Positions 7,468 through 23,891 of a stretch of DNA of 64,000 nt are shown piece after piece. The notes under the pieces are model-generated. The model had not been told where the DNA came from, did no database searches, and saw only the letters and a program-made list of their open reading frames with translations. Origin of the DNA: Halalkaliarchaeum sp. AArc-CO. GTDB lineage: Archaea; Halobacteriota; Halobacteria; Halobacteriales; Haloferacaceae. The DNA lies in the NCBI RefSeq assembly GCF_024972735.1, contig NZ_CP087723.1, forward strand, positions 806,001 through 870,000. The letters are read 5' to 3'. The translations under genes and the position numbers were made by a program. Every line of letters starts with the position of its first letter. Within the stretch, counting starts at the first letter, position 1.

Positions 7468-8307
7468 ATGAGCGAATCCGACGATGGGCGATCGATATTT
7501 CTCCGGGAGGAACCGCCGCTCGACCTCACGTTCTCGGAACCCGAACTCGAAGAGGTCCGCGACCACATCACCGACTTCATCGCCGCCACCGTCGACGCGG
7601 CCGGCGCGGAGGGCGCTGTCCTCGGGCTCTCGGGGGGGATCGACTCGACGACGACTGCCTATCTGGCGGTCGAGGCGCTGGGCCCCGACGGCGTTCACGG
7701 CCTACTCATGCCAAGCGAAGTGAACGATCCCGAGACGATGTCCGACGCCGAGCGCGTCGCCGAAGCCCTGGGTATCGAGTACGACGTAATCGAGATCCAG
7801 CCGATCGCCGAGACGTTCTTCGATCAGTATTCCGACGCGGCCGACGATCGGATGGCGGCCGGAAACGTCTACGTCCGGACACGGGCGGTGTTGAACTACT
7901 TCGTCGCGAACCACGAAAACCGGATCGTTCTCGGGACGGGCAACCGCTCGGAGGCGATGACCGGCTACTTCACGAAGTACGGCGATCAGGCGGTCGACTG
8001 CAACCCGATCGGCAACCTCTACAAGATGCAGGTGCGTCAGCTTGCAGCTCACCTTGGCGTCCCCCACGATCTGGTGATGCAGACGCCCACCGCGGGGATG
8101 TGGGTCGGGCAGACCGACGAGGAGGAGATGGGCGTCGACTACGACACCCTCGATGGAATCCTGGCGCTGCACGTCGACGGTCCGCTGTCGGCCGACGCCA
8201 CCGTCCGGGCGCTGGACGTGACTGCAGAGCAGGTCGATCGAGTGGTGGAACTCGTCGAGACCAGCGAACACAAACGATCGATGCCGCCGGCGCCTCCCCT
8301 GGAGTGA
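7468..8307 (+). CDS. nadE: NAD+ synthetase (ammonia-dependent type)
   Basis: 279 aa. It converts deamido-NAD+ to NAD+ with ATP in the last step of NAD biosynthesis. The N-type ATP-pyrophosphatase P-loop is VLGLSGGIDSTTTAYLA (SGGxDS). RIVLGTGNRSEAMTGYFTKYGD is the strongly conserved NadE stretch binding the deamido-NAD and ATP. It ends in HKRSMPPAPP, as haloarchaeal NadE proteins do. There is no glutaminase domain, so ammonia is the expected nitrogen donor. The ATG at 7468 is preferred to an ATG at 7432. Confidence 0.96.
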   Translation: MSESDDGRSIFLREEPPLDLTFSEPELEEVRDHITDFIAATVDAAGAEGAVLGLSGGIDSTTTAYLAVEALGPDGVHGLLMPSEVNDPETMSDAERVAEALGIEYDVIEIQPIAETFFDQYSDAADDRMAAGNVYVRTRAVLNYFVANHENRIVLGTGNRSEAMTGYFTKYGDQAVDCNPIGNLYKMQVRQLAAHLGVPHDLVMQTPTAGMWVGQTDEEEMGVDYDTLDGILALHVDGPLSADATVRALDVTAEQVDRVVELVETSEHKRSMPPAPPLE

Positions 8308-9888: not shown

Positions 9889-9960
9889 GCCTGGGTAGCT
9901 TAGCGGTAAAGCGCGTCCTTGGTAAGGACGAGACCGCGGGTTCAATTCCCGCCTCAGGCT
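9889..9960 (+). tRNA. tRNA-Thr (anticodon GGT), island attachment site
   Basis: The 72-nt sequence folds as a cloverleaf. GCCTGGG pairs with CTCAGGC (one G-U), with T as discriminator. The D arm contains TAGCTTAGCGGTAAAGC. The anticodon stem-loop is CGTCC-TTGGTAA-GGACG with anticodon GGT. The T arm is GCGGG-TTCAATT-CCCGC. An integrase gene starts about 190 bp downstream, and a diverged copy of the 3' half lies at 24125-24167, so this gene is the left junction of an integrated island. Confidence 0.95.
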
Positions 9961-10150: not shown

Positions 10151-11281
10151 ATGAGAATGAAGCACGGAGACGAGAACAAGGTAGACGGTATCGTCCTCGT
10201 AACAGAGGACGCCGCAGAATACCTGAATCCTCGGCAGGAACTCTCTTACCGGGAACACCGCAGAGAGTTAGCGGAGTGGATGCTCAGCCTCGGAAAAGAC
10301 CCGGGGAAGGCAGAGGGCTACAGCCATACTACTGCGAAGAACAGGATGAACCGGCTCGACCTCTTCTACCGGTACACCTGGGATCAGGAAGGCCGATACG
10401 TCCAGGATCTCTCGACTGATCACGCCGATTCTTGGATGCGTTGGCTCGCACGGAAAGACTACAAGGAGTCGACGAAGTGCCACTACCAGAAGGCCGTCCA
10501 CACCTTGTTCAAATGGCAGAACTGGGAACGCGACCGGAACATCGACTGGGAACCTGTGATCGAGTACAGCGATCCCTCCACCAACTACACCCCGAGAGAC
10601 TACCTGACAAGGGACGACCGTAGAAAACTCCGGGAAGCTGCGATGGAGTACGGATCCGTACCTCACTACAATTCTTTAATGCCGGAGGAGCGGGACCGCT
10701 GGAGGAAGCACCTCGCACAGCGGCTCCAGAAACCCGCTGAAAAGGTAGGGAAGGAGGACTGGATCAAGGCGAACTCCTTCAAGTACACCTCAATGATCTA
10801 CACCGCTTTGGACGCGGGACTACGGCCATGTGAGGTCGAACGCGCCAACCTTCGATGGGTGGACACGGACAACCAGGTACTACGGATTCCCAGGGAGGAC
10901 GCATCGAAGAACCGTGAGAACTGGATCATCGCACTGAAACCCGAGACCGCATCCATACTGGAACGCTGGATCGAGGAACGAAAAACACGTGAGAAGTACG
11001 ACAACCGGGAGGCGTTGTGGCTTACCAAGTACGGCAACAGGTACAACAAGGACTCCTTCAGGACCGTCTTCCGGAACATCGCCCAGGAGGCAGGGCTCGA
11101 CCTCGAGAACCGTGACCTGACTCCTTACAGCATCCGGCACTCCACCGCTACATACATCGCCGAGGAACAAGGGTTAGCGGTCGCTGCCGCACAGTGCCGC
11201 CACAAGTCCAAACGGACTACGGAGAAGTACGAGCATAGTTCAGTTAGTCGTCAATCCGACGCGGTCAACAGCATAGACTGA
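10151..11281 (+). CDS. Tyrosine recombinase (integrase) next to tRNA-Thr
   Basis: 376 aa. The catalytic domain occupies about residues 210-376. ALDAGLRPCEVERANL holds the first catalytic Arg; TPYSIRHSTATYIAEE is the HxxR-type box, with Tyr in place of the first His, as is usual in haloarchaeal integrases; CRHKSKRTTEKYEH carries the late His and the nucleophilic Tyr. The N-terminal half is a SAM-like core-binding domain. A ribosome site GGGAGGTG precedes the ATG; another ATG lies two codons in. Its position beside the attachment site makes it the likely enzyme for island integration. It is diverged from the second integrase at 18107 and lacks that protein's zinc ribbon. Confidence 0.92.
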   Translation: MRMKHGDENKVDGIVLVTEDAAEYLNPRQELSYREHRRELAEWMLSLGKDPGKAEGYSHTTAKNRMNRLDLFYRYTWDQEGRYVQDLSTDHADSWMRWLARKDYKESTKCHYQKAVHTLFKWQNWERDRNIDWEPVIEYSDPSTNYTPRDYLTRDDRRKLREAAMEYGSVPHYNSLMPEERDRWRKHLAQRLQKPAEKVGKEDWIKANSFKYTSMIYTALDAGLRPCEVERANLRWVDTDNQVLRIPREDASKNRENWIIALKPETASILERWIEERKTREKYDNREALWLTKYGNRYNKDSFRTVFRNIAQEAGLDLENRDLTPYSIRHSTATYIAEEQGLAVAAAQCRHKSKRTTEKYEHSSVSRQSDAVNSID

Positions 11282-11447: not shown

Positions 11448-13871
11448 ATGAGTGGTGCCCTGCCTTATGTTGATACTGAGGAATGTGTAGTAGCCGCTCT
11501 GGAGGCTTTTGAATCCTGGCTTGAGAACTATTTAGAACAAGACCAGGTAAGCTGGAAGATCGTTTTCGATCAATATAGCACGATCTTCATCGATGATCCT
11601 TCCTCTGATCTGATCGACATTTCTATCACTGGACGCCTTTCAGAACAGATACCTGAGGAATATGCTAATGATTCAGGAGAAATACGCACGCCTGTTTTTC
11701 CAGCTGGTGCTCAAGGATTCCCAGACAACATCAAGGTTAATGAATCAGTGGGGCATGAAGAGTTATTCTCTGAGATTGTTGTCGAACTTCAGGAACTCGA
11801 AGAAGGTTCTGCTTCTGAGGACATTGTTCTAGAAGATGTTATTGAACGTCATAATGATCATGGGATTGTGGATGCCTTCGGCAGCGTCTGGGGTGAACGT
11901 GATTCTCTATTAGCGGTGAAAGCGGCTGAGCGCTCTCTATCCGAAGAGGACCCTGATATCGTTGTCAGCTTTGATGTTCTCCAGAGAATGGCTCCTCCTT
12001 TCCAATATGCAGATTATCTGAAGTATGAACAGCATGAGGATGGCGAGCTGCTGAGCCAGCATAAAGTCAGTTTCAATAAGATCGTAGAGTCAGAGTCTCT
12101 CTCGTCCGAGGAACTTCCTGAAGCCGAGAAAGTGTATGTTCATCAGGATAAGAGGGTTGCAGCATCAGATCATGATATCTCTTCCCAGGATATCGCTCAA
12201 GCCATTCAGGGAAATGTACTACGTAAGAACAGTTTTTGTACACTTTCTGACCCTACTGATAGAGGTTTAAGAGCCCGTGTTGGATCCATAGAGAAAGTAG
12301 TGCTTGAAGAAGATGAAGAGACTTACCGCGGCTTTGTCCGTATCTCACCTAGCGTTGATGTCTCTCTTGTATACGATTTCTATGCAGCGCTCCGTGTACC
12401 TGAAGCTCCCTATCTGACCCATGATTTGGCTCAGGAAACCGTAGACTGGGATAGAGACCACAATCGGTTTTCGGGTTGGAGTGCGGCAGGCGACGGTTTT
12501 GCCTACCATAGCATTGATCGGAGGAGAGACATTCAACGTCGGTTGCTCGCACATAAGTACTGGGTCATACACGGTGAGAAGTACCGCAGAAAGGCCGATT
12601 TCGAAGACGATGTTGAAGCCCTTATTGAGATGATGGAGTCGGAACTGAACTGCGAGGTCTCTTGGCGCAAGTTTGAGGGAACCCGTATTCAGAAGACGCC
12701 TATCCGCCAGTCAGATGTATTGGAACAGATTAGGAACGATGTCCGTACGCCACCTGACAGAAGCACCTTGCTCGAGGCCATAGATCCATTCACAAACAGC
12801 AGCGAGGATGTCGAAGATATTGATGAACCGCTGTTTCCCAGCGATCTATCCGAATTCGTTGCCGATACAAGCATAATCGATGCCCAGGTAATCACGAGAC
12901 TTGTATCAGAGGGTGATCTATACAGATCAACCGTACTGATCCCGGATGTAGTACTGGAAGAGATTCACCGACAGGTCGAAAAAGGAGCTTCACGAGGCGA
13001 CTCCGGCCTTGAGGAGCTAACCGCATTAAGAGAGCTCACGGAAAAGGATATCATCAACCTTGAAACAGTTACTACAGAAAAATCTGTAGATACTGAGGAC
13101 AACGTCGCAGTCGATCAATCACTAATTCAAGTCGCAAAGAAACACGACGTCCCACTCTGTTCTGCAGACGAGACACTTCTGAAGTTCGCGGAGGCAGCTG
13201 GTGTCACTGCATACCCCTTAGAACAGGAACTTTCCCACTGGAGCCAGACGATCAAAAATTCGCTGAGACAAAGCGGTGAGCTTCCGATTACTGACTTGGT
13301 TAGGAAAGTCTACCAGAAAGTCGATGAGAAGAAGTTTTCAGAAGAATCGGTGCATCAAGCCCTCTTCAGAAGTCCTGGACGGATACCATCTCAAGATATA
13401 GCTATGGAGATGGCTATACGGGAAGAAATCAACCGTCTTGTACGCCGCGGAGAACTGTACCAACAAGGTGGACAGGTAGGTCTCAAACAGGAAGTCACAG
13501 TGGTACCTTCGCTAGGTGCGATTAAAGACAGGACACTTTTTGAGAAGATAGATAACGGTGAACTTTCCGACAGAATCGAAATCCCTCCCCACAAAATCCA
13601 GTTCAAAGTCCTTCTACCAGATACCTTCAAGCACTGGGCTTCACTCCAAGGCAAGCAGGAATACCTTTTAGCACTCGACAAGCTAGAAGATCTGGATAGT
13701 CAGGCCGAAATCCGGATTGAATGGAGGGAAGTCCTACCATCAGAAACAGGGTTAGCATTGCTGGACGAGGAACAGTTCTCCAATCTCTTCCAAGGCCTTC
13801 AAAGGAAGACCGCCGTGGAACTCAACACTGTAATCGGCACGGGTTCCAGCTCTATCCTGATAAATCATTAA
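11448..13871 (+). CDS. Large protein with a central PIN nuclease domain, unknown N-terminal half
   Basis: 807 aa. Residues 1-460 match no family I know and contain no ATPase loop. Residues about 465-585 form a PIN domain of the PINc/VapC-ATPase type: EFVADTSIID (first Asp), LIPDVVLEEIHRQVEKG (Glu), NVAVDQSLIQVAKKHDV (Asp) and LCSADETLLKFAEAAGV (Asp), the complete acidic set for a metal-dependent RNase. The region after it (about 600-700) looks like a winged helix (RIPSQDIAMEMAIREEINRLVRRGELYQQGGQ). AT-rich codon use differs from the core genome. It lies upstream of, and co-directional with, the QatB-like/QueC-like genes, with a gap of about 375 bp. A nuclease effector role is inferred. Confidence 0.8.
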   Translation: MSGALPYVDTEECVVAALEAFESWLENYLEQDQVSWKIVFDQYSTIFIDDPSSDLIDISITGRLSEQIPEEYANDSGEIRTPVFPAGAQGFPDNIKVNESVGHEELFSEIVVELQELEEGSASEDIVLEDVIERHNDHGIVDAFGSVWGERDSLLAVKAAERSLSEEDPDIVVSFDVLQRMAPPFQYADYLKYEQHEDGELLSQHKVSFNKIVESESLSSEELPEAEKVYVHQDKRVAASDHDISSQDIAQAIQGNVLRKNSFCTLSDPTDRGLRARVGSIEKVVLEEDEETYRGFVRISPSVDVSLVYDFYAALRVPEAPYLTHDLAQETVDWDRDHNRFSGWSAAGDGFAYHSIDRRRDIQRRLLAHKYWVIHGEKYRRKADFEDDVEALIEMMESELNCEVSWRKFEGTRIQKTPIRQSDVLEQIRNDVRTPPDRSTLLEAIDPFTNSSEDVEDIDEPLFPSDLSEFVADTSIIDAQVITRLVSEGDLYRSTVLIPDVVLEEIHRQVEKGASRGDSGLEELTALRELTEKDIINLETVTTEKSVDTEDNVAVDQSLIQVAKKHDVPLCSADETLLKFAEAAGVTAYPLEQELSHWSQTIKNSLRQSGELPITDLVRKVYQKVDEKKFSEESVHQALFRSPGRIPSQDIAMEMAIREEINRLVRRGELYQQGGQVGLKQEVTVVPSLGAIKDRTLFEKIDNGELSDRIEIPPHKIQFKVLLPDTFKHWASLQGKQEYLLALDKLEDLDSQAEIRIEWREVLPSETGLALLDEEQFSNLFQGLQRKTAVELNTVIGTGSSSILINH

Positions 13872-13962
13872 TTCCGAATCCCGGTATGAAAACCATCGAA
13901 ATTGCACCTAAGCCAGTGTTTTTCGATTTTCTTAGCAGTTCGGCCACTTCGGCAGGAAAGCA

Positions 13963-13992
13963 GAACTCCAACCCTCATTAGCGAGGGAGTTC
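13963..13992. terminator. Stem-loop in the gap after the PIN gene
   Basis: GAACT (13963-13967) plus CCCTC (13972-13976) pair with GAGGG (13983-13987) plus AGTTC (13988-13992), with a four-base bulge and a six-base loop. It lies about 90 bp after the PIN gene stop. It could end that transcript or belong to an untranslated RNA. There is no strong T tract next to it. The rest of 13872-14209 holds no convincing gene. Confidence 0.3.
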
Positions 13993-14208
13993 GGGGACTT
14001 CGGCATATCGGAAAAGGGTAGCTCTGTTGACCTCGCTCACCCAGTCCAGGGTGAAGCCATCTGAGGAAAAGCGGCCGAACAAACGAAACGATGCTTGCGT
14101 GTTCTTGATCAAGTGAAGAGAGGAGGACACCCGTCTCGTCGAAAGGTTCGCTCGTCAACAGAGCTCATAGATCACGATTGAGGTTGCCGATTAAGTGTCA
14201 CTGTCAAG

Positions 14209-14220
14209 TGATTATTTATG
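14209..14220 (+). promoter_or_regulatory. Probable TATA box for the QatB-like gene
   Basis: The AT-rich stretch GATTATTTATG lies about 28-37 nt before the ATG at 14247, the spacing expected for an archaeal TATA box giving a leaderless or nearly leaderless transcript. This suggests that the QatB-like/acidic/QueC-like trio is transcribed from its own promoter, separately from the PIN gene. Confidence 0.4.
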
Positions 14221-14246
14221 TTTTGGCTGAATATGTTTTCACAGAT

Positions 14247-14726
14247 ATGGGAAGCGCCTCCACTGGTTCCTCAGGAGCATCAAGCATAGGATATACAGAT
14301 GCAAAGAAAGGGATGAATCAAGCTTTAGAATCAGATAAAACACAGATGGCGGTTGATATCGCAGTTACTGGCGCTTTAGCCGTACAGCCGAACGGTCCAG
14401 CGAAAGTAACCACTTATGCTTATCTAAAGCACACAAACACCTTTATTCAAACAACAAGCCAGGAAGGTATTGAGGCAGGAATCCAAGCGACCGGTAAAAG
14501 CATGGTAAAAGGAGAAATAGCTAATCAGGTTTCCGGAGGAATCGTTCATACATCACAACAAGCAGTTTCAGCTGCCTCCGAAAACGAAACAGTGGCAAGA
14601 GGTGTTGACGAGGTAAACAACAACTTCGGAACACCTTCGGAAGAGGCCGCAAAGGCGACTCTTGGAAGCGTTATCTCCAATGGTGCGGACGCCATGATGA
14701 CTGGAGGTTCGAAAGACGATGAGTGA
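14247..14726 (+). CDS. QatB-like small protein with Gly/Ser-rich N terminus
   Basis: 159 aa from the ATG at 14247. It starts MGSASTGSSGASSIGYTDAK, a flexible Gly/Ser/Ala segment beginning Met-Gly, then becomes a helical Ala/Thr/Gln-rich protein ending GGSKDDE. The Met-Gly-Ser/Thr start followed by Ser/Gly-rich sequence resembles QatB of the Qat antiphage system, but no longer homology can be claimed by eye. The stop codon lies inside the start of the next gene (overlap 14719-14726), and the QueC-like enzyme is third in the unit. From the context it may be the protein the QueC-like enzyme acts on. In-frame codons upstream to 14178 would hide the Gly N terminus and cross the TATA box. Confidence 0.7.
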   Translation: MGSASTGSSGASSIGYTDAKKGMNQALESDKTQMAVDIAVTGALAVQPNGPAKVTTYAYLKHTNTFIQTTSQEGIEAGIQATGKSMVKGEIANQVSGGIVHTSQQAVSAASENETVARGVDEVNNNFGTPSEEAAKATLGSVISNGADAMMTGGSKDDE

Positions 14727-15144
14727 CGATCCATTCGTAGATGAAGAAGAGGCAGAACAGAATATTGAGGAGTTTATTGAGGAACACGGGACAGAAGGTC
14801 TCTTCGTCGTATACTTTCGTCAGTTCATCTTTAGCTTCATAATGCAGGAGCTGAAGTCCAGTGACGAAGAAGTAGAGGACATCGGAACCCAGCTTCACCT
14901 TGACCCGGACGGAGACCAGCCTCTCAAAAATCAACGCGAACAAATGCTGGAACGGTGCGAACACTGGGCTCGAGACCTCGTCGATCACCTAAAAGAAGAT
15001 GAAGTCGTCTCCGAAGTCATCGAATCAGGCGATCTTTCACGGCTTGAAGACGAAGATGTCGAGGAACGAGTCGAACAGGCTATTGACGAGAAGTTTGGTG
15101 AATGGAAAAATCTTCTTGAGGACTTTCTTGAGGGACTGGAATGA
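14719..15144 (+). CDS. Acidic helical protein of the QueC-like cluster
   Basis: 141 aa, very acidic, and predicted to be almost all helix with coiled-coil character (EEAEQNIEEFIEEHG, DEDVEERVEQAIDEK). It contains one aromatic hydrophobic segment, LFVVYFRQFIFSFIMQEL (about residues 28-45), too polar at its edges to be a clear membrane helix. No family recognised. Its start overlaps the end of the QatB-like gene by 8 nt and its stop overlaps the QueC-like start (ATGA at 15141), so the three are translationally coupled and probably act together. Confidence 0.72.
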   Translation: MSDDPFVDEEEAEQNIEEFIEEHGTEGLFVVYFRQFIFSFIMQELKSSDEEVEDIGTQLHLDPDGDQPLKNQREQMLERCEHWARDLVDHLKEDEVVSEVIESGDLSRLEDEDVEERVEQAIDEKFGEWKNLLEDFLEGLE

Positions 15145-16568
15145 CAACGGAGAAATATTATGTTCTACGTCATCCTGAGTTCCAGAGACGGACGGAATCG
15201 AAACTTCGAAAGAAAGATGAAACGGACTATGATAATATCATAGCAGTTGTTCCATACAAAAAGGACGAATTTCCTTACGAAGTAGACTATAGCAGGAGGA
15301 AACCGCTAGAGGCGGACGAAGTCGTCAAGTACGATCACTCCATCACCCATAATCTGTTTCAGGATAGAGTTCCCGACATCGTATTAGATATTCTGGAAAT
15401 TGCTGTGGCTACATTCGCGGCAGACAAAGCAGTAGATCGCGGTGTTAAGATTAATGATGAGGACTTTGATGAAAGCCGACTCAACACCAGGAATATCAAG
15501 CTCCAGGTTCCAGTACTATCGCCTGAGATAGCGACTGAAGAGATGGAACGGCTCTACTCGGAGATGGTGTCCCACATGACTCGGGATGTTGTAGAGTACG
15601 ACTTCCAGCTCGTCGGCAAAACTGAGTCAATAGATAGATACACGGGCCAATGTGGCGATAACACAGTAAGCCTCCTTTCAGATGGTCTGGATAGTACTGC
15701 CGGTATCTACCATAACAAGTCCCAAGGAACGGAATCAGAGTACGTCACGGTCAATTATGGAAGCGGTGTTAGACCGAAAGTAGAAGAAATCGCAGAAGAA
15801 GCAGAGATTGACCCTCAAATCTTCAAAACTCGTTACGAAGGTAGCGGCGAATCTACTCAGTTCTCCCGAGGACTTCTCCATCTCAGCTTTGCAGCTGCTG
15901 CCGGTTCCGCCTTCGGCGCCAACGAAATACGATGTTTCGAGAATGGAATCATGGCCCGGTTCCTCATACTTTCCGAAGGCTGGATGACCACAAGAACCGT
16001 TTCACCACTCTTCTTAACCTACTTCAACAAGATACTGGATAGCCTTTCAAAGCCAATCACGGTCAAAAACCCGTTTGTCAACCACACCAAAACAGAGATC
16101 ATAAGCAAGATTCCTAGCACCGAAACAGTACAAAAAGCCATCTCTTGTCCACATAAAGCCTGGTTCGGAAACCAGAACTGCGGACTCTGTGTACCCTGCC
16201 TCATACGGAACATCGGCATAATTCAGAGCAGTCATGAAGTCGCATTAGAAGACCTCTCCAAGTATAACCCGTTGCTCTCAGCGAACTTCGAAAATCAGAC
16301 TTTCGACGTAGAAATAAAAGAGAATTTGAACGACAATGCAAACTCTCAAGATGTTTTCTTCAAAGCTGTAGCAGAGATAGCATACTTCTGCCGCCGCATC
16401 CTGAAAGAGAATCCTCGGGACCTCGCAATAGAGTATCCGGAATTGCTAAACAGGCCAATCTATAGACAACATCATCTATTTGCAGAAAACTTCGTGGAAT
16501 CCATGCACACAGCTTCAGAGAAAAACCCTACCCTCTCTTATCTAGTGAGAGAATCGTCAAACAATTAG
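15141..16568 (+). CDS. QueC-like ATP-pyrophosphatase, QatC-type
   Basis: 475 aa, about twice the length of housekeeping QueC. Residues about 175-188 carry the N-type PPase P-loop (VSLLSDGLDSTAGIY, SxGxDS). The zinc site is at about 336-353: Cys in ISCPHKAW, then NCGLCVPCLIRN, the C...CxxCxxC arrangement of QueC, which makes 7-cyano-7-deazaguanine. The N-terminal 170 residues and C-terminal 120 residues are extra and have no named domain. Long QueC-like proteins with such additions occur in antiphage systems (QatC, and Cap9 of type IV CBASS). No other queuosine-pathway genes are nearby, which argues against a tRNA-modification role. It overlaps the upstream gene by ATGA and, tail to tail, the TraB-like gene by 4 nt. 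Confidence 0.85.
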   Translation: MTTEKYYVLRHPEFQRRTESKLRKKDETDYDNIIAVVPYKKDEFPYEVDYSRRKPLEADEVVKYDHSITHNLFQDRVPDIVLDILEIAVATFAADKAVDRGVKINDEDFDESRLNTRNIKLQVPVLSPEIATEEMERLYSEMVSHMTRDVVEYDFQLVGKTESIDRYTGQCGDNTVSLLSDGLDSTAGIYHNKSQGTESEYVTVNYGSGVRPKVEEIAEEAEIDPQIFKTRYEGSGESTQFSRGLLHLSFAAAAGSAFGANEIRCFENGIMARFLILSEGWMTTRTVSPLFLTYFNKILDSLSKPITVKNPFVNHTKTEIISKIPSTETVQKAISCPHKAWFGNQNCGLCVPCLIRNIGIIQSSHEVALEDLSKYNPLLSANFENQTFDVEIKENLNDNANSQDVFFKAVAEIAYFCRRILKENPRDLAIEYPELLNRPIYRQHHLFAENFVESMHTASEKNPTLSYLVRESSNN

Positions 16569-17299
16569 AAAAACAGCGGGAGAAAAACTGAGGAAAGATA
16601 AAGGATTCCTGAGTAGAATACGAATAAAACGGAAAATGCAGTGAAGGCCGGAACAGCTAACTCACGTAGATGATGTAAAGAAAGTCGGCTGTACGAGGTG
16701 CGGCGGACTTCTGGATCAATATCATTTGGTAAATGATCCAAAATACCCTCAACATGGCTATCGCCTACTACAGCCACAACTCGATTACTGTCTTCAGCTG
16801 CTTCAACAATTTTATCTGCCATAATCTGATCTCGGTTATTATCCTCAGATGAACGCTCCATATTGTATATCCGTATAAGCAAAATCGGTAACAGTACACC
16901 AATTAGGAGAAGAAATGCACCTCCTACAGTATTTCCTGTGGAGAGACCGAAAAGGATGCTAAACGATACTAAGAGGTAGAACAAAATAGCGCCCATCCAC
17001 TGCATCCATCGAGAAGTGTTGTCCAATAATTCTGAATCCGATTCCCTAGTGTACACTACGTCAGCATCCTGTATCTCCGCCAAATCAATCAGAATATCTT
17101 TGCCGACATACAGATTGTTCATAATCAGCCCAAAAATATCGAGCGATGTCGAGAACCAGCTTTCTTTCCAGCCATAATCAGGTTCAGACTCTGCGCCTTC
17201 TAAGACTAGGGTGTCGATCCCCTCTTTCACTAACTCACATTCTTCTTCCAAGTCCCCCGAACTTGTATGCAACTCTCCCTTCAAAACGACCTCTGTCAT
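16565..17299 (-). CDS. TraB-like membrane protein
   Basis: 244 aa. The soluble parts resemble the TraB family: VVLKGELHTS at the start (in place of the GTAHVS motif), VLEGAESEPDY, and RDQIMADKIVEAAEDSNRVVAVVGDSHVEGI (the family's RDxxMAxxI...VVAVVGxxHxxGI block). Three or four hydrophobic segments are present: two in the middle (about 102-146) and one or two at the C terminus (AFSVLFVFYSGILYLSSVFL). It is shorter than chromosomal archaeal TraB proteins (about 500 aa). It converges with the QueC-like gene and overlaps its stop codon, so it may be unrelated cargo or an accessory of the cluster. Confidence 0.62.
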   Translation of the reverse strand: MTEVVLKGELHTSSGDLEEECELVKEGIDTLVLEGAESEPDYGWKESWFSTSLDIFGLIMNNLYVGKDILIDLAEIQDADVVYTRESDSELLDNTSRWMQWMGAILFYLLVSFSILFGLSTGNTVGGAFLLLIGVLLPILLIRIYNMERSSEDNNRDQIMADKIVEAAEDSNRVVAVVGDSHVEGILDHLPNDIDPEVRRTSYSRLSLHHLRELAVPAFTAFSVLFVFYSGILYLSSVFLPLFF

Positions 17300-17774: not shown

Positions 17775-18106
17775 ACCTTATCGATTACTGTCAACCGAAC
17801 TGTTGCGTTCCACTATCTAGATAGTATATAAAGAATACTGGCTAGGTTTCTCTTGAAAACTCAAAAGAAGGAAGGAGAAGGAAAAATAGAGGTATCGAAC
17901 ACCTCTAAACGGTTTAGAGCTTGGGGTGGGAGCCCAGTTTACAAACGATGTAATGGGGTCCAAAAGTAACGGCGGGCAAGAGAAGCCGGGCACCGGTTCC
18001 ACCGGAACCCAACCGACGAACGGTGTAGAGCATTCACACCCCATTGAATCCAAGCGAAGCTGCGTCTCTCCCCGGTCTCCTTCCATCTCGAGGAGAACGA
18101 AACTCT
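17775..18106. other. Gap before the second integrase, with a repeat-like motif
   Basis: 332 bp without a convincing gene. At 17787-17803 it has ACTGTCAACCGAACTGT, close to motifs seen at 34258-34285 and, inverted, at 63178-63195. A second part (17931-18062) is GC-richer and could belong to the integrase leader. No tRNA half or copy of the island attachment core was found here, so a boundary between two elements cannot be proved at this point. Confidence 0.45.
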
Positions 18107-19333
18107 ATGTCTACCACCGAACACGTCAACGTAGAACGAAGCCTTCAAAATCTCGAGGAGGAGGTCCACCCGGAGAACGCGGAAGCAGTACGCCGCTTTA
18201 TCGATCACCAGGCCGCGGAAGGGATCAGCGAGGTACAGCAGGACCGCCAGGTACAGTCGTTCAAAGCGCTTCTGACTAAGTTCGCTCCCGACGGCTTCCG
18301 GCTGCAAGGTGCGTCCGAAGACGAGCTCAAAACGTTGCTCGCCCGTTTGAACAGGAGTGACTACGCGGAGTCGACCAAGATCAAGTTCAAGGGAGCGGTC
18401 AAGAAGTTCTACAAGGTGGAGAACGGTGGCCACGAACACCCTTCGAAAGTAGGTTTCTTCTCCGTTAACAAGAAGAAGGCCACTCCCGTTACGCGGGACG
18501 ACCTGTTTACCGATGAGGAGCGGAAACGTTTGTTCCGCAGCTTCACCAATACAAGGGATCGGGCGTTCACCATGGTTCTATACGAAAGTGCGGCACGTCC
18601 AGGTGAACTCCTCAACTGCAACATAAACGACTTCTCAACAGGGAAAGGCGACTTCATCTTCCTCGAAGGATCGAAAGGGACGCCCGACAGGAACAACCAG
18701 CTCGTGCGATCGGGAAGGACGTTACGTGAATGGATCTCGCAGCACCCTTTAGGCGGTGAGATCGGCGACATCGAGGATTCATCCGCACCTCTCTGGGTCA
18801 AAAACGAGCAACAAAGTTGCGAACACTGCGGTGAGATCCCGCGTTTCCACGATGATGGTTGTAGTTACGAGCCGGATCTACGTGACAGGATGAACTACAA
18901 CGGCTTCCTCAACCGTTTCAAGGATGCCTGTGAACGCGCAGACATCCCTGAGAACAAACAGCGGCCGTACAATCTGCGTCATACCCGTTTGACCGAGGTC
19001 GCGACCTTCATGGGCTACGAACAGCTCAACAAGTTCGCCGGCTGGGTCCCAGGAAGTAATAGAGCGAAGGTATACGTCCACCTCAACAGCGACGACGTCA
19101 ACAAAGCGATACGGGAAGAGTACGGTCTCGACAACGGTGAGGAAGAGGACGGGTCGATCAACTGCTCCTTCTGCGGAACCGAGAACCAGTCCCAGTATTC
19201 TGAGTGTCGTAACTGTGGACGACCACTAAGCCTTGAAGAAAAATCGAGCAAAGAGGAGAAGCGGAAGATCCTGGAACGGTTGGCAGAGCTTGAGGAACAA
19301 GGAGTATTAGAAAATATTTTTACTGATAAATAG
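18107..19333 (+). CDS. Second tyrosine recombinase, with C-terminal zinc ribbon
   Basis: 408 aa from the ATG at 18107, preceded by CGAGGAGAACG. The catalytic domain holds LYESAARPGELLNC (Arg), KQRPYNLRHTRLTEVATF (Tyr replacing the first His of HxxR), KFAGWVPGSNRAKVYVH (late Trp and the Tyr nucleophile). There is a cysteine cluster CEHCGEIPRFHDDGC inside the catalytic domain, and a zinc ribbon near the C terminus (CSFCGTENQSQYSECRNCG), followed by a coiled coil. Haloarchaeal mobile elements commonly carry integrases of this kind. Coding composition is GC-richer than that of the adjoining defence genes, so it may have a separate history. Confidence 0.92.
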   Translation: MSTTEHVNVERSLQNLEEEVHPENAEAVRRFIDHQAAEGISEVQQDRQVQSFKALLTKFAPDGFRLQGASEDELKTLLARLNRSDYAESTKIKFKGAVKKFYKVENGGHEHPSKVGFFSVNKKKATPVTRDDLFTDEERKRLFRSFTNTRDRAFTMVLYESAARPGELLNCNINDFSTGKGDFIFLEGSKGTPDRNNQLVRSGRTLREWISQHPLGGEIGDIEDSSAPLWVKNEQQSCEHCGEIPRFHDDGCSYEPDLRDRMNYNGFLNRFKDACERADIPENKQRPYNLRHTRLTEVATFMGYEQLNKFAGWVPGSNRAKVYVHLNSDDVNKAIREEYGLDNGEEEDGSINCSFCGTENQSQYSECRNCGRPLSLEEKSSKEEKRKILERLAELEEQGVLENIFTDK

Positions 19334-19394
19334 TTTGGCACGGAATTATCCATCACAACGCACGTGTTCTTCCATTCCCGGGCGAGGATTAATA

Positions 19395-22300
19395 ATGACT
19401 GAAAATGAGAGGACAGCTACTGAATCAGAAAACATGGATGCTTCCGCTAGTACCAGACGGATGGCTGGAGCTGCCAGAGGTTATACCTTCCAAGATGTTA
19501 TAGCGGGCGCATGCATTCTGTCAGTCTTTTTTGAGGAGTCTCAGGCTATTACTATTGAATCGAAGCTCAACGAAGGAGACAAATTTGATGACATTATTCT
19601 GGAACAGGATGGTGACATAATCTGTATACAGGTGAAAAATGGTCCAGATCATACACTTTCATCCAGTGACCTTACCGGCTCAAGCGGCAGAGGGCTAGAT
19701 CTTAGCAATCTATCCGAATCTGCAGAAGCTCGAGTCCAAGCAGGAGAAGGCACACGTTTCATAGCGCTAACCTCGTTTGGAAGTGAGACTGGCCCAGATA
19801 TCGAATTTTTAGATGACTCTGAAAACATAACTCTGTTCGGCGAATTAAGCTTTGAAACGGACATATTAGCGGATGGTAGGAACGAGGTTGACGGAGAAAT
19901 CGTTGATATTGAATTCGTTCTTGGAGTACCGGGAATAGGAACAGCTACTGATGAAAAGGTAGAATCGCTTCGCAATACGGAACTTTTCGAAAGAATAGTT
20001 GAAAGTGTTACCTCACGTCTAAATATCCGAGAGAATCCAGAAATCGATGATCCATATTCGCTAACGGAGAGGGCAGTTAACTTAGCGAGATGGGCGCGGA
20101 ACCAGCCGGTCGATGTTCAAAGATTGGACCGAGAGGAGATAATCCACCGGTTAAAGTTGTTTCCATCTAAACAGTTCGCACAACAATTTGAACTTCCAGA
20201 GAAATACATCCGACCCAGATGGACCGAGGAACTAGAGGAAGCATTTGATGATTCAGACAACCGAGTCTTAGTAGAAGGCAGCCCCGGAAGCGGGAAATCC
20301 GTAGGTATTGAACTCTTTCATCGGAGTTGGGAAGATTCGGATGATTATCGAACTCTTCGATTCTACCTCTATGTGCCGGAAGATGCTGATTCACTAGAAA
20401 AGAGGCGAGGCGACCCAGAATGGTTCAGGCACCAGCTTGCTGCTCAGATATATGATACATTTCCAGAAGCGTTTGGAGAAGGTACTCCAGCTCCGGTATG
20501 GACGGGAACTGAAGACCTACAACAGTATATTGATAAGGTTGCCCAATGGGCAGAACAAGAGGAACAACAAATTCTATTTATCATTGATGGTCTTGATCAT
20601 GCACTACGACAGTTTGGAGGTACTTCCGCCACAGAATCCGCTGAAGGCACCGTCCTTGAGGAACTGGGATCGCTTGACTTCCCTAATCCGCTAGGTCTCT
20701 TGATGATCAGTCGTGAGATAACGGAGGCTCACGATATTTTACGAGTTGATAATCAAATTGAGGTTCCACGATGGAGTGTGGAGGAGATCAAAGAATATCT
20801 TGAGAGAAAGAACATACCTCCCGAGGACGAGTTCGTCAGAAGAGTTGCAGAAATTTCTGGCGGACTCCCTGTCATCATCTCGCATCTCATACGAAAGGCT
20901 GAAACTCAGGGAGAAGAAGTAATTGAGGGTCTTCAATCAGCAATCGAGGATGCATCGCACGTTGATGGTGAACTTGAACAGTATTACGATACGATTTGGG
21001 AGCCTTTAGAACCGTATGAGCGAGACGTGGTCTCTTTATTCGCATTGAACCCTACAGGGTTACGAGAAGAGACAATTAAATCAGTAGTCGATTTTCCCTA
21101 CATACAGGAAAGCACGAGGCTTGAAGGTGCACCACTCGCCCATATTTTAGAGTCTACGGCAGATGGACGATTCCGAGTATTCCATGATAGCTTCAGAAAG
21201 TTCGTAGAAGACCAGCTGGATCAAGAAGAAATTACACAAGGCCACGAACGCCTCTACGAGTATCTGTTTGACCAGTGTATCAAGTTTCCACAAAACTTGG
21301 AGAGTCTAAAGTACCACGCAGAAAATGGACCTGGACGTAGTGCTCTCAAGGAGTTGGCAACTCTTGAGAATCTCCTGTGTTGGTGGCAAGAAGGGATTCA
21401 TCTCGACCATCTCTCTAAAACGTTAGACTTGGCCTTTGATGTTTCACTTCGAGATGAAGACTATTTCACGGCTGTGGACTGTATCCTTCTTGGAGGTGTT
21501 GCCCGAAATATGCTCGATATTTACATGGAAGATAACTCTCGTCTCAGATATTTTGCCGCCCAGTCAGACCTAGGTAGGGCTCTACGCTTAGTAGATCAAA
21601 TTCGGGGTTACGAAGGCGGCAGCAAGGAAGCCATCGAAGCGATGCAAATCGTGGCTCGGAACTGGGAAGATGAATTGGAGCGAGATTGGCTTGCTGCTTG
21701 GGAAGAAGACTATCAAAGAGCTGAGCAGCCGAGCTGGGATCCGGAAGCGTACTTTGAGGTCGCATCTGAAATATTGGAGCCGCAGGAGTTTTGGAAAGCC
21801 GCGGGAGAAATTAGGCGAGAGGACAACGGACAACACTTTCCGCGAGAAGTCCTTGCTGCTGTCCAGAATAAACCCGAACTATTGGAGGGCCAACCCGAGC
21901 CGCCGGAGTGGTTATTTGAGAATGAATCAGTGGCATTGGAAGCGTGTGAAGACCTAATCCATGATCTTCCGGAGCCATGGCGTGAAGAACTTAAAGAGAA
22001 TGCCCCGGATTACTCAGACTTATCTTTAGCAGCACTACATACTTTACTCAGATGTGGTGGAGCAGAAGACGAAATCCGAGAGGTTATTGAAAACACCGAA
22101 CTTGGCGAGCCGATAGATGATTGGGGTCAAGGAGGTTCCCGGTTCTATGAAGTCTACTATACCGGTTCAATAGTTGCAAGTCTTGACGAGTCTCCCGAGG
22201 AGCTTCTTGAAACCATAGACCGGATAGCTATCGAGCAACCGCGGTTTCAGAAGCTTCTTGCCATGATGGGGGCGGCCACGACTAGAGACTCTTCGACTCA

Positions 22301-23891
22301 GAGCCAGCGGTGGGTCGATGCTACCCTTGAGTTCCTTTGTAGAATCTTTGAAGAAGGCCATTTAGTTGATTCAGATGTTCGATATGTAGACCAGTTTCGA
22401 TATCAGCAAGCAGTTTCTGATATTGCAGGCGCCTTTAGAAAGGTAGTTAAACAGGGTTCAGAGGACCAATTAAGTGAAGCAATCCAACTGAATAAAGAAG
22501 CGGACTTTGAAGATCGAACCTTGGAAACGGTTTCCCGATATCTTACTGAAGCATGGGAGGAAGTCAACACGGAAGCTCTCCCGGATGGTATAGATGAGCG
22601 TTATGAGAACATATTGAAAAGACCCCCTAGTGAAGAGCCGCCGTCGAGAGAGCTCATGGATTTAGCTGTACGAGCGGCCAAAGAGGGATATGATTCTCGC
22701 GCTGAAAATTACGTAGAAGTCGCGGTTGAGCGCTGTTTCCGATATGGTTATCGGAAGGATATTTTCCTTAACGATGTTTGGAAAGGACTTGAAGATGTCG
22801 CAGACGGGCAATGGGATCGACATCTCGGCACTGCTATCCAGCTGATTAATTGGGCGAATCTTCTTCATGACCTTACAGACGGGAAAGAGACTCGTCACTT
22901 TGAGGGAGTATTCTTAAAATCTCTTCTTGATGCTGATGCCGTTGACTATCATACGGCAGAAAAATATGCTGAACATAACACAACTCAAAGGAAACTCTGG
23001 AACTGGCGCTTGGAGAATCCAGATGGAATGACTGCAGAGGAACTGAGAAGTCTCATTTATGTGAAAGAAACGCGGATTCGAAGTCGACGTCATTCAAATA
23101 GAGAGCTCCCCTTCTTTTCAAAAGCTGCTGAAGTGGCTGATAATTTCGGTTGGGATGAACTGGTTGTTAAAGCACTACATGCGTTAAATAGGGGAGACTA
23201 TGTCCGAGACGGTATCAACTCCGATCGAGAACAGAGACTTCGGGACTTGGCATCACAATATGATATAGAGATACCCAGCGACCTGGATTCAGATAATGGT
23301 TCCAGTGAATTCGAAGGAGAATCTGTAGAAACAGAATCAGAAGATGACCGCATACATGAAATTCTTTCTCAACATTCAGAAGAGGATCCGGTTTCGGTGG
23401 AGAGTGTGGAAGAACTTACGTCAGAGGAACTTTTGAATGCTGGCGAATTGCTCCAAAAGGATATGGTAGGATCACCAAGGTACAATCCGGCTGCAGCAGC
23501 TCCAATTTCGCGTGTTTTAGCGGATAGGGGTAATGTGGATGACGCGATTGAGTTGTTGGAGAATGTGATTGCAGAGCGTGATCTTATAAATTCGTGGTTG
23601 GGAGGCGGACGTGGCCGCTTTGAGATGGTCGCTGAAGCTTTGCTCGACATAAATGAAGAAAGAGCTCTCCAGAGTGTGCTTAATGGTTGGAGAATGAGCC
23701 GCCTTGACACTCAAAGCTATCTTTCGATACTTCCTCAACTATTGTGGATAGTAAAACAGACTGAGGGAGAAATAGCCGCTGAAGAACTATTTTCGCACAT
23801 GATGAAGTGGATGAGAAGACTTGTATGGCCATACGAAAATCACGTCCAGAAGTGGGGTGTTCTCGAATCAGATGAACATTCGACGAGATAG
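19395..23891 (+). CDS. Avs-like STAND NTPase with N-terminal Cap4/Mrr-like nuclease
   Basis: 1498 aa from the ATG at 19395, with GAGGA upstream. Residues about 28-180 form a PD-(D/E)xK nuclease-like domain: GYTFQDVIAGA, E55, DD at 65-66, then CIQVKNG (Q79, K81), the E-D-QxK layout of DUF4297/Cap4 effectors. A P-loop follows at about 295-302 (EGSPGSGKSVG), Walker B at about 393-400 (ILFIIDGLDH), then LLMISREI and EISGGLPVIISHLI, typical of STAND ATPases. The remaining 900 residues are helical repeats, the usual sensor part. Such proteins (Avs/AVAST) recognise a viral protein, oligomerise and degrade DNA. Which Avs type it is, and its ligand, cannot be told. It is the last gene before the right attachment copy. 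Confidence 0.88.
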   Translation: MTENERTATESENMDASASTRRMAGAARGYTFQDVIAGACILSVFFEESQAITIESKLNEGDKFDDIILEQDGDIICIQVKNGPDHTLSSSDLTGSSGRGLDLSNLSESAEARVQAGEGTRFIALTSFGSETGPDIEFLDDSENITLFGELSFETDILADGRNEVDGEIVDIEFVLGVPGIGTATDEKVESLRNTELFERIVESVTSRLNIRENPEIDDPYSLTERAVNLARWARNQPVDVQRLDREEIIHRLKLFPSKQFAQQFELPEKYIRPRWTEELEEAFDDSDNRVLVEGSPGSGKSVGIELFHRSWEDSDDYRTLRFYLYVPEDADSLEKRRGDPEWFRHQLAAQIYDTFPEAFGEGTPAPVWTGTEDLQQYIDKVAQWAEQEEQQILFIIDGLDHALRQFGGTSATESAEGTVLEELGSLDFPNPLGLLMISREITEAHDILRVDNQIEVPRWSVEEIKEYLERKNIPPEDEFVRRVAEISGGLPVIISHLIRKAETQGEEVIEGLQSAIEDASHVDGELEQYYDTIWEPLEPYERDVVSLFALNPTGLREETIKSVVDFPYIQESTRLEGAPLAHILESTADGRFRVFHDSFRKFVEDQLDQEEITQGHERLYEYLFDQCIKFPQNLESLKYHAENGPGRSALKELATLENLLCWWQEGIHLDHLSKTLDLAFDVSLRDEDYFTAVDCILLGGVARNMLDIYMEDNSRLRYFAAQSDLGRALRLVDQIRGYEGGSKEAIEAMQIVARNWEDELERDWLAAWEEDYQRAEQPSWDPEAYFEVASEILEPQEFWKAAGEIRREDNGQHFPREVLAAVQNKPELLEGQPEPPEWLFENESVALEACEDLIHDLPEPWREELKENAPDYSDLSLAALHTLLRCGGAEDEIREVIENTELGEPIDDWGQGGSRFYEVYYTGSIVASLDESPEELLETIDRIAIEQPRFQKLLAMMGAATTRDSSTQSQRWVDATLEFLCRIFEEGHLVDSDVRYVDQFRYQQAVSDIAGAFRKVVKQGSEDQLSEAIQLNKEADFEDRTLETVSRYLTEAWEEVNTEALPDGIDERYENILKRPPSEEPPSRELMDLAVRAAKEGYDSRAENYVEVAVERCFRYGYRKDIFLNDVWKGLEDVADGQWDRHLGTAIQLINWANLLHDLTDGKETRHFEGVFLKSLLDADAVDYHTAEKYAEHNTTQRKLWNWRLENPDGMTAEELRSLIYVKETRIRSRRHSNRELPFFSKAAEVADNFGWDELVVKALHALNRGDYVRDGINSDREQRLRDLASQYDIEIPSDLDSDNGSSEFEGESVETESEDDRIHEILSQHSEEDPVSVESVEELTSEELLNAGELLQKDMVGSPRYNPAAAAPISRVLADRGNVDDAIELLENVIAERDLINSWLGGGRGRFEMVAEALLDINEERALQSVLNGWRMSRLDTQSYLSILPQLLWIVKQTEGEIAAEELFSHMMKWMRRLVWPYENHVQKWGVLESDEHSTR

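Follow-up and report, generated by a model that had tools for sequence, protein, structure and literature searches.

The DNA considered here is a stretch of 64,000 nucleotides (nt) from the haloarchaeon Halalkaliarchaeum sp. AArc-CO (contig NZ_CP087723.1, positions 806,001 to 870,000), which is referred to in its whole length as the window. It contains three overlapping genes (14247–16568), in which gene 1 shares 8 nt with gene 2 and gene 2 shares 4 nt with gene 3, and which encode a protein starting Met-Gly-Ser, an acidic protein and an enzyme of the QueC family, all three being present as the open reading frames (ORFs) that an initial annotation of this DNA had described. With moderate confidence we read this trio as a stand-alone archaeal variant of Qat defence, in which the QatC-type enzyme would modify the N-terminal glycine of the gene 1 protein, and in which neither QatA, nor QatD, nor a PIN-domain protein encoded just upstream would be involved. 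The trio is filed under Qat because, as far as sequence tells, it resembles the QatB–QatC core, although it lacks the features of QatA, QatB and QatD. Our own labels for loci (L) and genomes (G) are used below where such places have to be told apart.

By its sequence, gene 3 is a true relative of QatC. Its Pfam match to PF06508 (QueC) reaches 1.6e-10 and 41.3 bits (cut-off 22), and it is scored better as QatC than as QueC both by PADLOC (2.4e-30 versus 6.8e-9) and by NCBIfam (9.6e-33 versus 4.6e-6). The solved QatC in the Protein Data Bank (PDB) is matched at 1.2e-12 by sequence and at 5.3e-31 with a profile. Comparison by hhalign of a profile of 14 haloarchaeal enzymes with one of ten bacterial QatCs resulted in a probability of 100 (E 1.2e-40), the alignment spanning residues 73–363 of the window enzyme and leaving its final 112 residues unaligned, as would be consistent with docking to another partner. 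The Thr-x-Thr pair (T284/T286), the S180-x-G-x-D-S185, E-N-G and T-K motifs and the four zinc cysteines are found in all 14 haloarchaeal and all ten bacterial rows, D72, R77, R87 and D118 (in the numbering of the L070 QatC) are also kept in all 14 haloarchaeal rows, and about half of the QatC-conserved residues outside the motifs are retained across them. In the tree, the 14 haloarchaeal enzymes form one clade with two subclades, apart from the bacterial QatCs (support 99/98), with several long branches that leave the finer placement unsure. Housekeeping QueC, acting in preQ0 synthesis, was considered for gene 3 and rejected (TIGR00364, 26.3 bits against a cut-off of 150.3), and the queD-queE-queC clusters of six haloarchaeal hosts are located elsewhere than the trio. 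On the evidence of PADLOC, NCBIfam, the PDB, hhalign and the pocket residues, the gene that had been called QueC-like therefore groups with QatC and not with the housekeeping enzyme.

The trio recurs across haloarchaea and is therefore not a chance arrangement. Among 391 haloarchaeal genomes, 13 hold relatives of the enzyme (P0004), at 14 places including the window's own, and one further place in Halosimplex salinum brings the total to 15; two more loci from the Halosimplex search were taken as those of G112 and G145 and counted once. Two of the 15 places (L028 and L030) are cut by contig ends and were left out of the count, and in all 13 evaluable haloarchaeal loci, the window included, genes 1 and 2 stand before that of the enzyme, which confirms in other haloarchaeal genomes the earlier proposal that the three coupled genes form a unit. 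Three rows were dropped from the alignments, namely L019 from A1 (its gene 1 being identical to that of L018), L027 from A2 (internal stop) and L028 from A3. An A/T-rich, TATA-like element, recognized by eye, stands shortly before the start of gene 1 in 13 of 13 loci, and the trio is therefore probably transcribed from its own promoter. Haloferax gibbonsii holds one relative, and two near-identical trios (L018 and L019) were observed on two large plasmids of a single strain, Natrinema sp. DC36 (G375), in differing surroundings. Among the 72,556 records of a plasmid collection, gene 1 was matched in five, all of them haloarchaeal, and gene 2 in two, with the PIN protein matched in none. P0004 matched 2 of the 50,697 records of a phage collection, both from Listeria, and no relative was confirmed among viral contigs with P0004, A1, A3 or P0001 in pattern-seeded scans, which distant relatives can escape.

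The gene 1 protein begins with MG(S/T)A(S/T) in all 13 evaluable haloarchaeal loci, a start of the type MG(S/T) being found in only 2 of 267 other ATG-started ORFs of at least 120 amino acids (aa) from the same DNA. Gene 1 is only ~31% identical between the window set, made up of the window and five places, and the seven places of the distant set, yet this start is conserved. The Met-Gly-Ser start noted initially thus stands, whereas the Gly/Ser-rich stretch that had been placed in a tail is in fact an N-terminal head; likewise, the description of this protein as QatB-like applies to its MG(S/T) start and not to the rest, the profiles showing no relation to QatB. Gene 1 had no match to Pfam, PADLOC or QatB, PDB sequence-profile searches with genes 1 and 2 returned nothing under E 0.04, and the two proteins have no detectable relation to one another. 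The 141-aa product of gene 2 is as acidic as had been claimed, its content of aspartate and glutamate (32.6%) being the highest among the 46 window ORFs of at least 130 aa, and its structure model is helical with a predicted local distance difference test (pLDDT) score of 76.8. As to the other Qat components, profile hidden Markov models (HMMs) of QatA (KAP ATPase), QatB and QatD (TatD nuclease), which had been built from 10, 8 and 10 sequences of plasmid Qat operons and of which that for QatD found its target in a Listeria locus as positive control, found no target in the window, nor in any of the 14 other loci, in agreement with the earlier remark that QatA and QatD are not visible.

The same design is encountered outside the haloarchaea. 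A search of 392 genomes of the phylum with the enzyme profile had hits in five, namely the window genome, G074 and G051, the latter two carrying the haloarchaeal trio, and G583 and G632, which lie outside the class and have the same layout of a protein of ~150 aa (starting MGSQ or MGGR), one of ~95 aa and a QatC-type protein (409 or 443 aa; NCBIfam QatC 1.2e-26 and 6.2e-22). The gene overlaps in G583, 8 and 4 nt, are identical to those of the window trio. Among the same 392 genomes the gene 1 profile matched three, all with the haloarchaeal trio. The Thr-x-Thr pair is retained in the QatC-type proteins of G583, G632 and Listeria; R77, R87, D118 and N299 are lost in both G583 and G632, and one zinc cysteine is lost in G632. 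The partner proteins of G583 and G632 show no clear relation to the haloarchaeal ones: shuffling (300 times) gave weak hints between partner families (P0002/P0013, z 2.9, 4/300; P0003/P0017, z 2.9, 4/300; P0014/P0017, z 2.6, 6/300), and the hhalign probabilities, 2.1 for gene 1 against P0013 and at most 0.1 for the other partner pairs tested, are too weak for a relation.

In Listeria phage LM 4-11-1 (an unverified record), a Qat-like BCD locus was observed (L081, 3042–5588), consisting of a 206-aa partner starting MGTN, a QatC-type protein and QatD; the partner has no match to the QatB profile and was matched in none of the records of the plasmid collection. QatB itself starts with (M/V)GTS in ten bacterial plasmid loci, in eight as annotated and in two after a shift to an upstream start (one of them a Val codon). 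The partners differ between haloarchaea, G583 and G632, Listeria and bacteria, and it follows that the partner bodies vary and that the glycine motif at the N-terminus is kept; little beyond the MG(S/T/G) start is common to QatB, the haloarchaeal pair, the pairs of G583 and G632 and the Listeria phage protein. A broader reading, which we put forward tentatively and at somewhat less than an even chance, is that QatC-type enzymes may be a general class of protein ligases acting on an N-terminal glycine, with freely exchangeable substrates, and would attach a small carboxylate other than a 7-deazaguanine, a modification not yet described.

Two known systems are the basis for such a reading. Cap9 of type IV CBASS joins a 7-deazaguanine, 7-carboxy-7-deazaguanine (CDG), to an N-terminal glycine (PMC11996544), and in Qat the QatB–QatC complex suffices against some phages, with Gly2 of QatB and the Thr pair and ATP loop of QatC being required for protection (PMC13279940). 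The available text of the latter report leaves the reaction of QatC, and the way in which the modified QatB stops phages, unsettled. By analogy with both, the expected target of the archaeal enzyme is the gene 1 glycine. In the mechanism proposed here, the first Met of the gene 1 protein would be removed and its Gly/Ser-rich N-terminus would enter the active site of the enzyme, which would activate a small carboxylate with ATP and then link this group to the N-terminal glycine. Docking or restraint of the gene 1 protein, a job that in bacteria would be done by the body of QatB, would fall to the acidic, helical product of gene 2, perhaps together with the C-terminal extension of gene 3, which is divergent. 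Upon virus infection the modified gene 1 protein would then stop the virus or the cell, QatA and QatD would not be needed, and the PIN protein would play no part.

The attached group is probably not CDG made by QueE. The window genome has no canonical QueC and no QueE match, its other PF06508 matches being two PP-loop genes that appear ArgG- and LarE-like and a PP-loop ATPase match at window positions 7615–7812, which lies within a 294-aa open frame and outside the island that carries the trio. The 13 haloarchaeal genomes with enzyme relatives were taken as hosts (that of Halosimplex is not among them), and seven of these, the window's included, have no over-cut-off QueC and, for QueE, weak matches of at most ~25 bits, and hence lack the known route to CDG, so that the trio can be carried without this pathway. 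Of 292 haloarchaea, 205 have QueE, against 6 of the 13 hosts (binomial P of six or fewer = 0.06, with relatedness not corrected), and the hosts are thus if anything poorer in QueE. The Tyr/Asp pair of Cap9 binds CDG and is replaced by Thr-x-Thr in QatC (PMC13279940); together with the gaps in the CDG pathway, the presence of the Thr pair favours another tag, unless CDG is salvaged. In one of the seven hosts (G318), a genome without QueE, a 213-aa QueC-like protein (L084, 1717–2358; 76 bits) was observed, another non-canonical QueC, the gene of which overlaps one reading like a kinase/deoxyribosyltransferase-type protein.

Homology and neighbouring genes together suggest that the trio is probably antiviral, 8 of the 13 evaluable loci having a gene with a defence-family match within ~7 kb. 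A PADLOC scan covered 16 chosen neighbours from nine of the trio loci, and several of these neighbours gave nothing. The window neighbour is Avs1b-like (1.3e-8), an IetA-like AAA gene stands in L015 (by match) and L019 (by family), and a CBASS CD-NTase in three distant loci, L023 (by match), L021 and L024 (both by family). In L020 the trio is neighboured by PglZ and HmaB/PglX-like genes, in L022 by a type IV restriction-like gene and in L026 by an Mrr-like gene, under the Pfam cut-off, the family of which is shared by L027. The neighbouring CD-NTases begin with MISRAK in the two copies that were read, and the CD-NTase of L023 is followed by a gene that, read by eye, resembles a membrane-plus-barrel effector; given these starts and the effector-like gene, the CD-NTases look like separate CBASS.

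It has to be noted that several observations weigh against the reading of the trio as a Qat variant with a modified gene 1 glycine. The NCBIfam QatC equivalog score of gene 3, 113.6 bits, is far under the 280-bit cut-off; W120, H177, R226, N260 and R355, which are invariant in the ten bacterial QatCs, are replaced in all 14 haloarchaeal rows, as is W85 (present in 9 of the 10 bacterial rows); and in the seven rows of the window subgroup Asp replaces the first Gly of SGGxDS, and Ser the His that follows the Thr pair in QatC, this Gly and this His being retained in the remaining seven rows. The defence-family neighbours were counted without matched control regions. The failed AlphaFold model of gene 1 (pLDDT 35.9) lends no support to docking or to flexibility, and one locus (L027 of G143, 10700–11200) has an in-frame stop in gene 2 with genes 1 and 3 staying open, which reflects either decay or that gene 2 is dispensable there. 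As regards the tag, QueE and QueC are present in G583, in G632 and in 6 of the 13 haloarchaeal hosts, where QueD, QueE and QueC lie side by side, and salvage of CDG or of a similar base is conceivable. These latter points, along with the QueC family membership of the enzyme, the Cap9 precedent (PMC11996544) and the proposal of CDG as the group attached by QatC (PMC13329287), speak for an enzyme that attaches CDG as Cap9 does, the base being host-made or salvaged, a possibility which, with Thr-x-Thr in place of the CDG-binding pair and with QueE and QueC missing in seven hosts, we regard as rather doubtful.

Other explanations concern the partners and the extent of the system. The trio could be an ordinary QatBC core whose QatB has been divided over genes 1 and 2 and has changed so far that it is no longer recognizable; the two genes occupy the place of QatB before QatC, have the MG(S/T) start, encode helical proteins and always occur together, and QatB itself is poorly conserved (17–36% identity to the first alignment row). 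However, hhalign of genes 1 and 2 against the QatB profile gave probabilities of 0.2 and 0.5, the QatB HMM found no match, and the fold search with gene 2 returned nothing under E 2.3 and no QatB among its 16 PDB fold matches, all of which makes such a split unlikely. Still less probable is a toxin–antitoxin or plasmid-addiction module without direct antiviral role, in which gene 1 would encode a toxin that becomes active on modification and gene 2 the antidote to it, as the small coupled genes on plasmids and islands and the acidic partner of a small protein might suggest: it sits badly with the QatC homology and with the repeated placement beside defence genes, and the stop in gene 2 of L027 speaks against gene 2 as an essential antidote.

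The initial annotation had also proposed that the 807-aa PIN-domain protein, whose gene is indeed in place upstream on the same strand, is the effector of a distinct archaeal branch. Such a four-gene system with the PIN protein as RNase effector, for which the common strand and the distance of 375 bp between the PIN gene and gene 1 would speak, now has a very slim chance, as the protein has no match in the 14 other trio loci (flanks up to ~10 kb, shorter at contig ends, two of them without an upstream side), and as gene 1 has a separate TATA-like element. Full-length relatives occur in only two of 382 genomes besides its own (59% and 34% identity), and the trio is absent from the 19.0 and 10.7 kb around them. 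The PIN domain itself (about residues 468–596) is supported by a partial NCBIfam match (2.9e-17) under the family cut-off and by Pfam PIN matches that are under their cut-offs too, and this domain alone is matched in 305 of the 382 genomes. The PIN protein is therefore judged to be a separate, rare gene and no part of the system.

If the tag is indeed a group other than a 7-deazaguanine, defence of this kind can run in archaea without QueE, and the trio bears on the question of which group is attached by QatC. As a minimal archaeal version, it suggests that the QatC pocket and the N-terminal glycine are essential, and that the QatB fold, QatA, QatD and probably CDG are dispensable.

The trio likely sits in an integrated element (Table 1), as indicated by a tRNA-Thr gene followed by a tyrosine integrase and by a fall in GC content from ~0.66 to 0.43–0.52, all of which fits the tRNA-integrated island described initially; a second copy of the tRNA 3' end, which would mark the right end of the island, was not found within the window. 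The source genome is near-complete, in two contigs. Inside the island lies a further tyrosine integrase (window 18104–19333), the C-terminus of which may carry a zinc ribbon, and the island may therefore be composite. A 1518-aa NACHT protein (window 19335–23891) has a partial Avs1b match, and its N-terminal part, read by eye, resembles a nuclease. Adjoining the trio on the minus strand is a gene for a 244-aa membrane protein (window 16565–17299) with a weak TraB-family match, a relative of which also stands beside the trio, at the opposite end, in L029.

Table 1. Features of the trio-bearing element in the window
Feature	Position	Strand	Remark
tRNA-Thr(GGT)	9889–9960	+	likely attachment site of the trio-bearing element
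Tyrosine integrase of the element	10151–11281	+	
PIN-domain protein, 807 aa	11448–13871	+	ORF; judged outside the system
TATA-like element	14212–14219	+	by eye; 28–35 nt before the gene 1 start codon
Gene 1, 159 aa, start MGSAS, likely modified substrate	14247–14726	+	
Gene 2, 141 aa, acidic, predicted all-helical, likely partner of gene 1 and the enzyme	14719–15144	+	
Gene 3, 475 aa, QatC-type enzyme of the QueC family	15141–16568	+	

The titles and abstract openings searched mention neither a Qat system from archaea nor a QatC that has a partner other than QatB; bulk preprints and subscription papers were outside the scope of this search, and an earlier description is therefore possible. In the available text of one study, the QatC cluster is termed mainly bacterial and three archaeal QueC clusters are given as uncharacterised (PMC13329287).

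Compared with known systems, the trio shares with Qat a QatC-type enzyme with Thr-x-Thr, zinc site and ATP loop and an upstream protein with an MG(S/T) start. It has two small partners in place of QatB, and the C-terminal extension of its enzyme fails to align with QatC. With type IV CBASS the trio has in common that an enzyme of the QueC family stands next to a protein whose N-terminus has a glycine motif; its substrate, however, is no CD-NTase, neither a CD-NTase nor a Cap10-like gene was found among the window proteins scanned (P0001–P0007 for CD-NTase), and the enzyme has Thr-x-Thr instead of the Tyr/Asp of Cap9. Canonical QueC resembles gene 3 in the PF06508 fold, the ATP loop and the zinc cysteines, but gene 3, at 475 aa, has a QatC-type pocket and no adjacent queD or queE, and is under the TIGR00364 cut-off. 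The locus of Listeria phage LM 4-11-1, finally, is like the trio in that a QatC-type protein stands behind an MG-start protein unlike QatB, and differs from it in having QatD and one partner instead of two.

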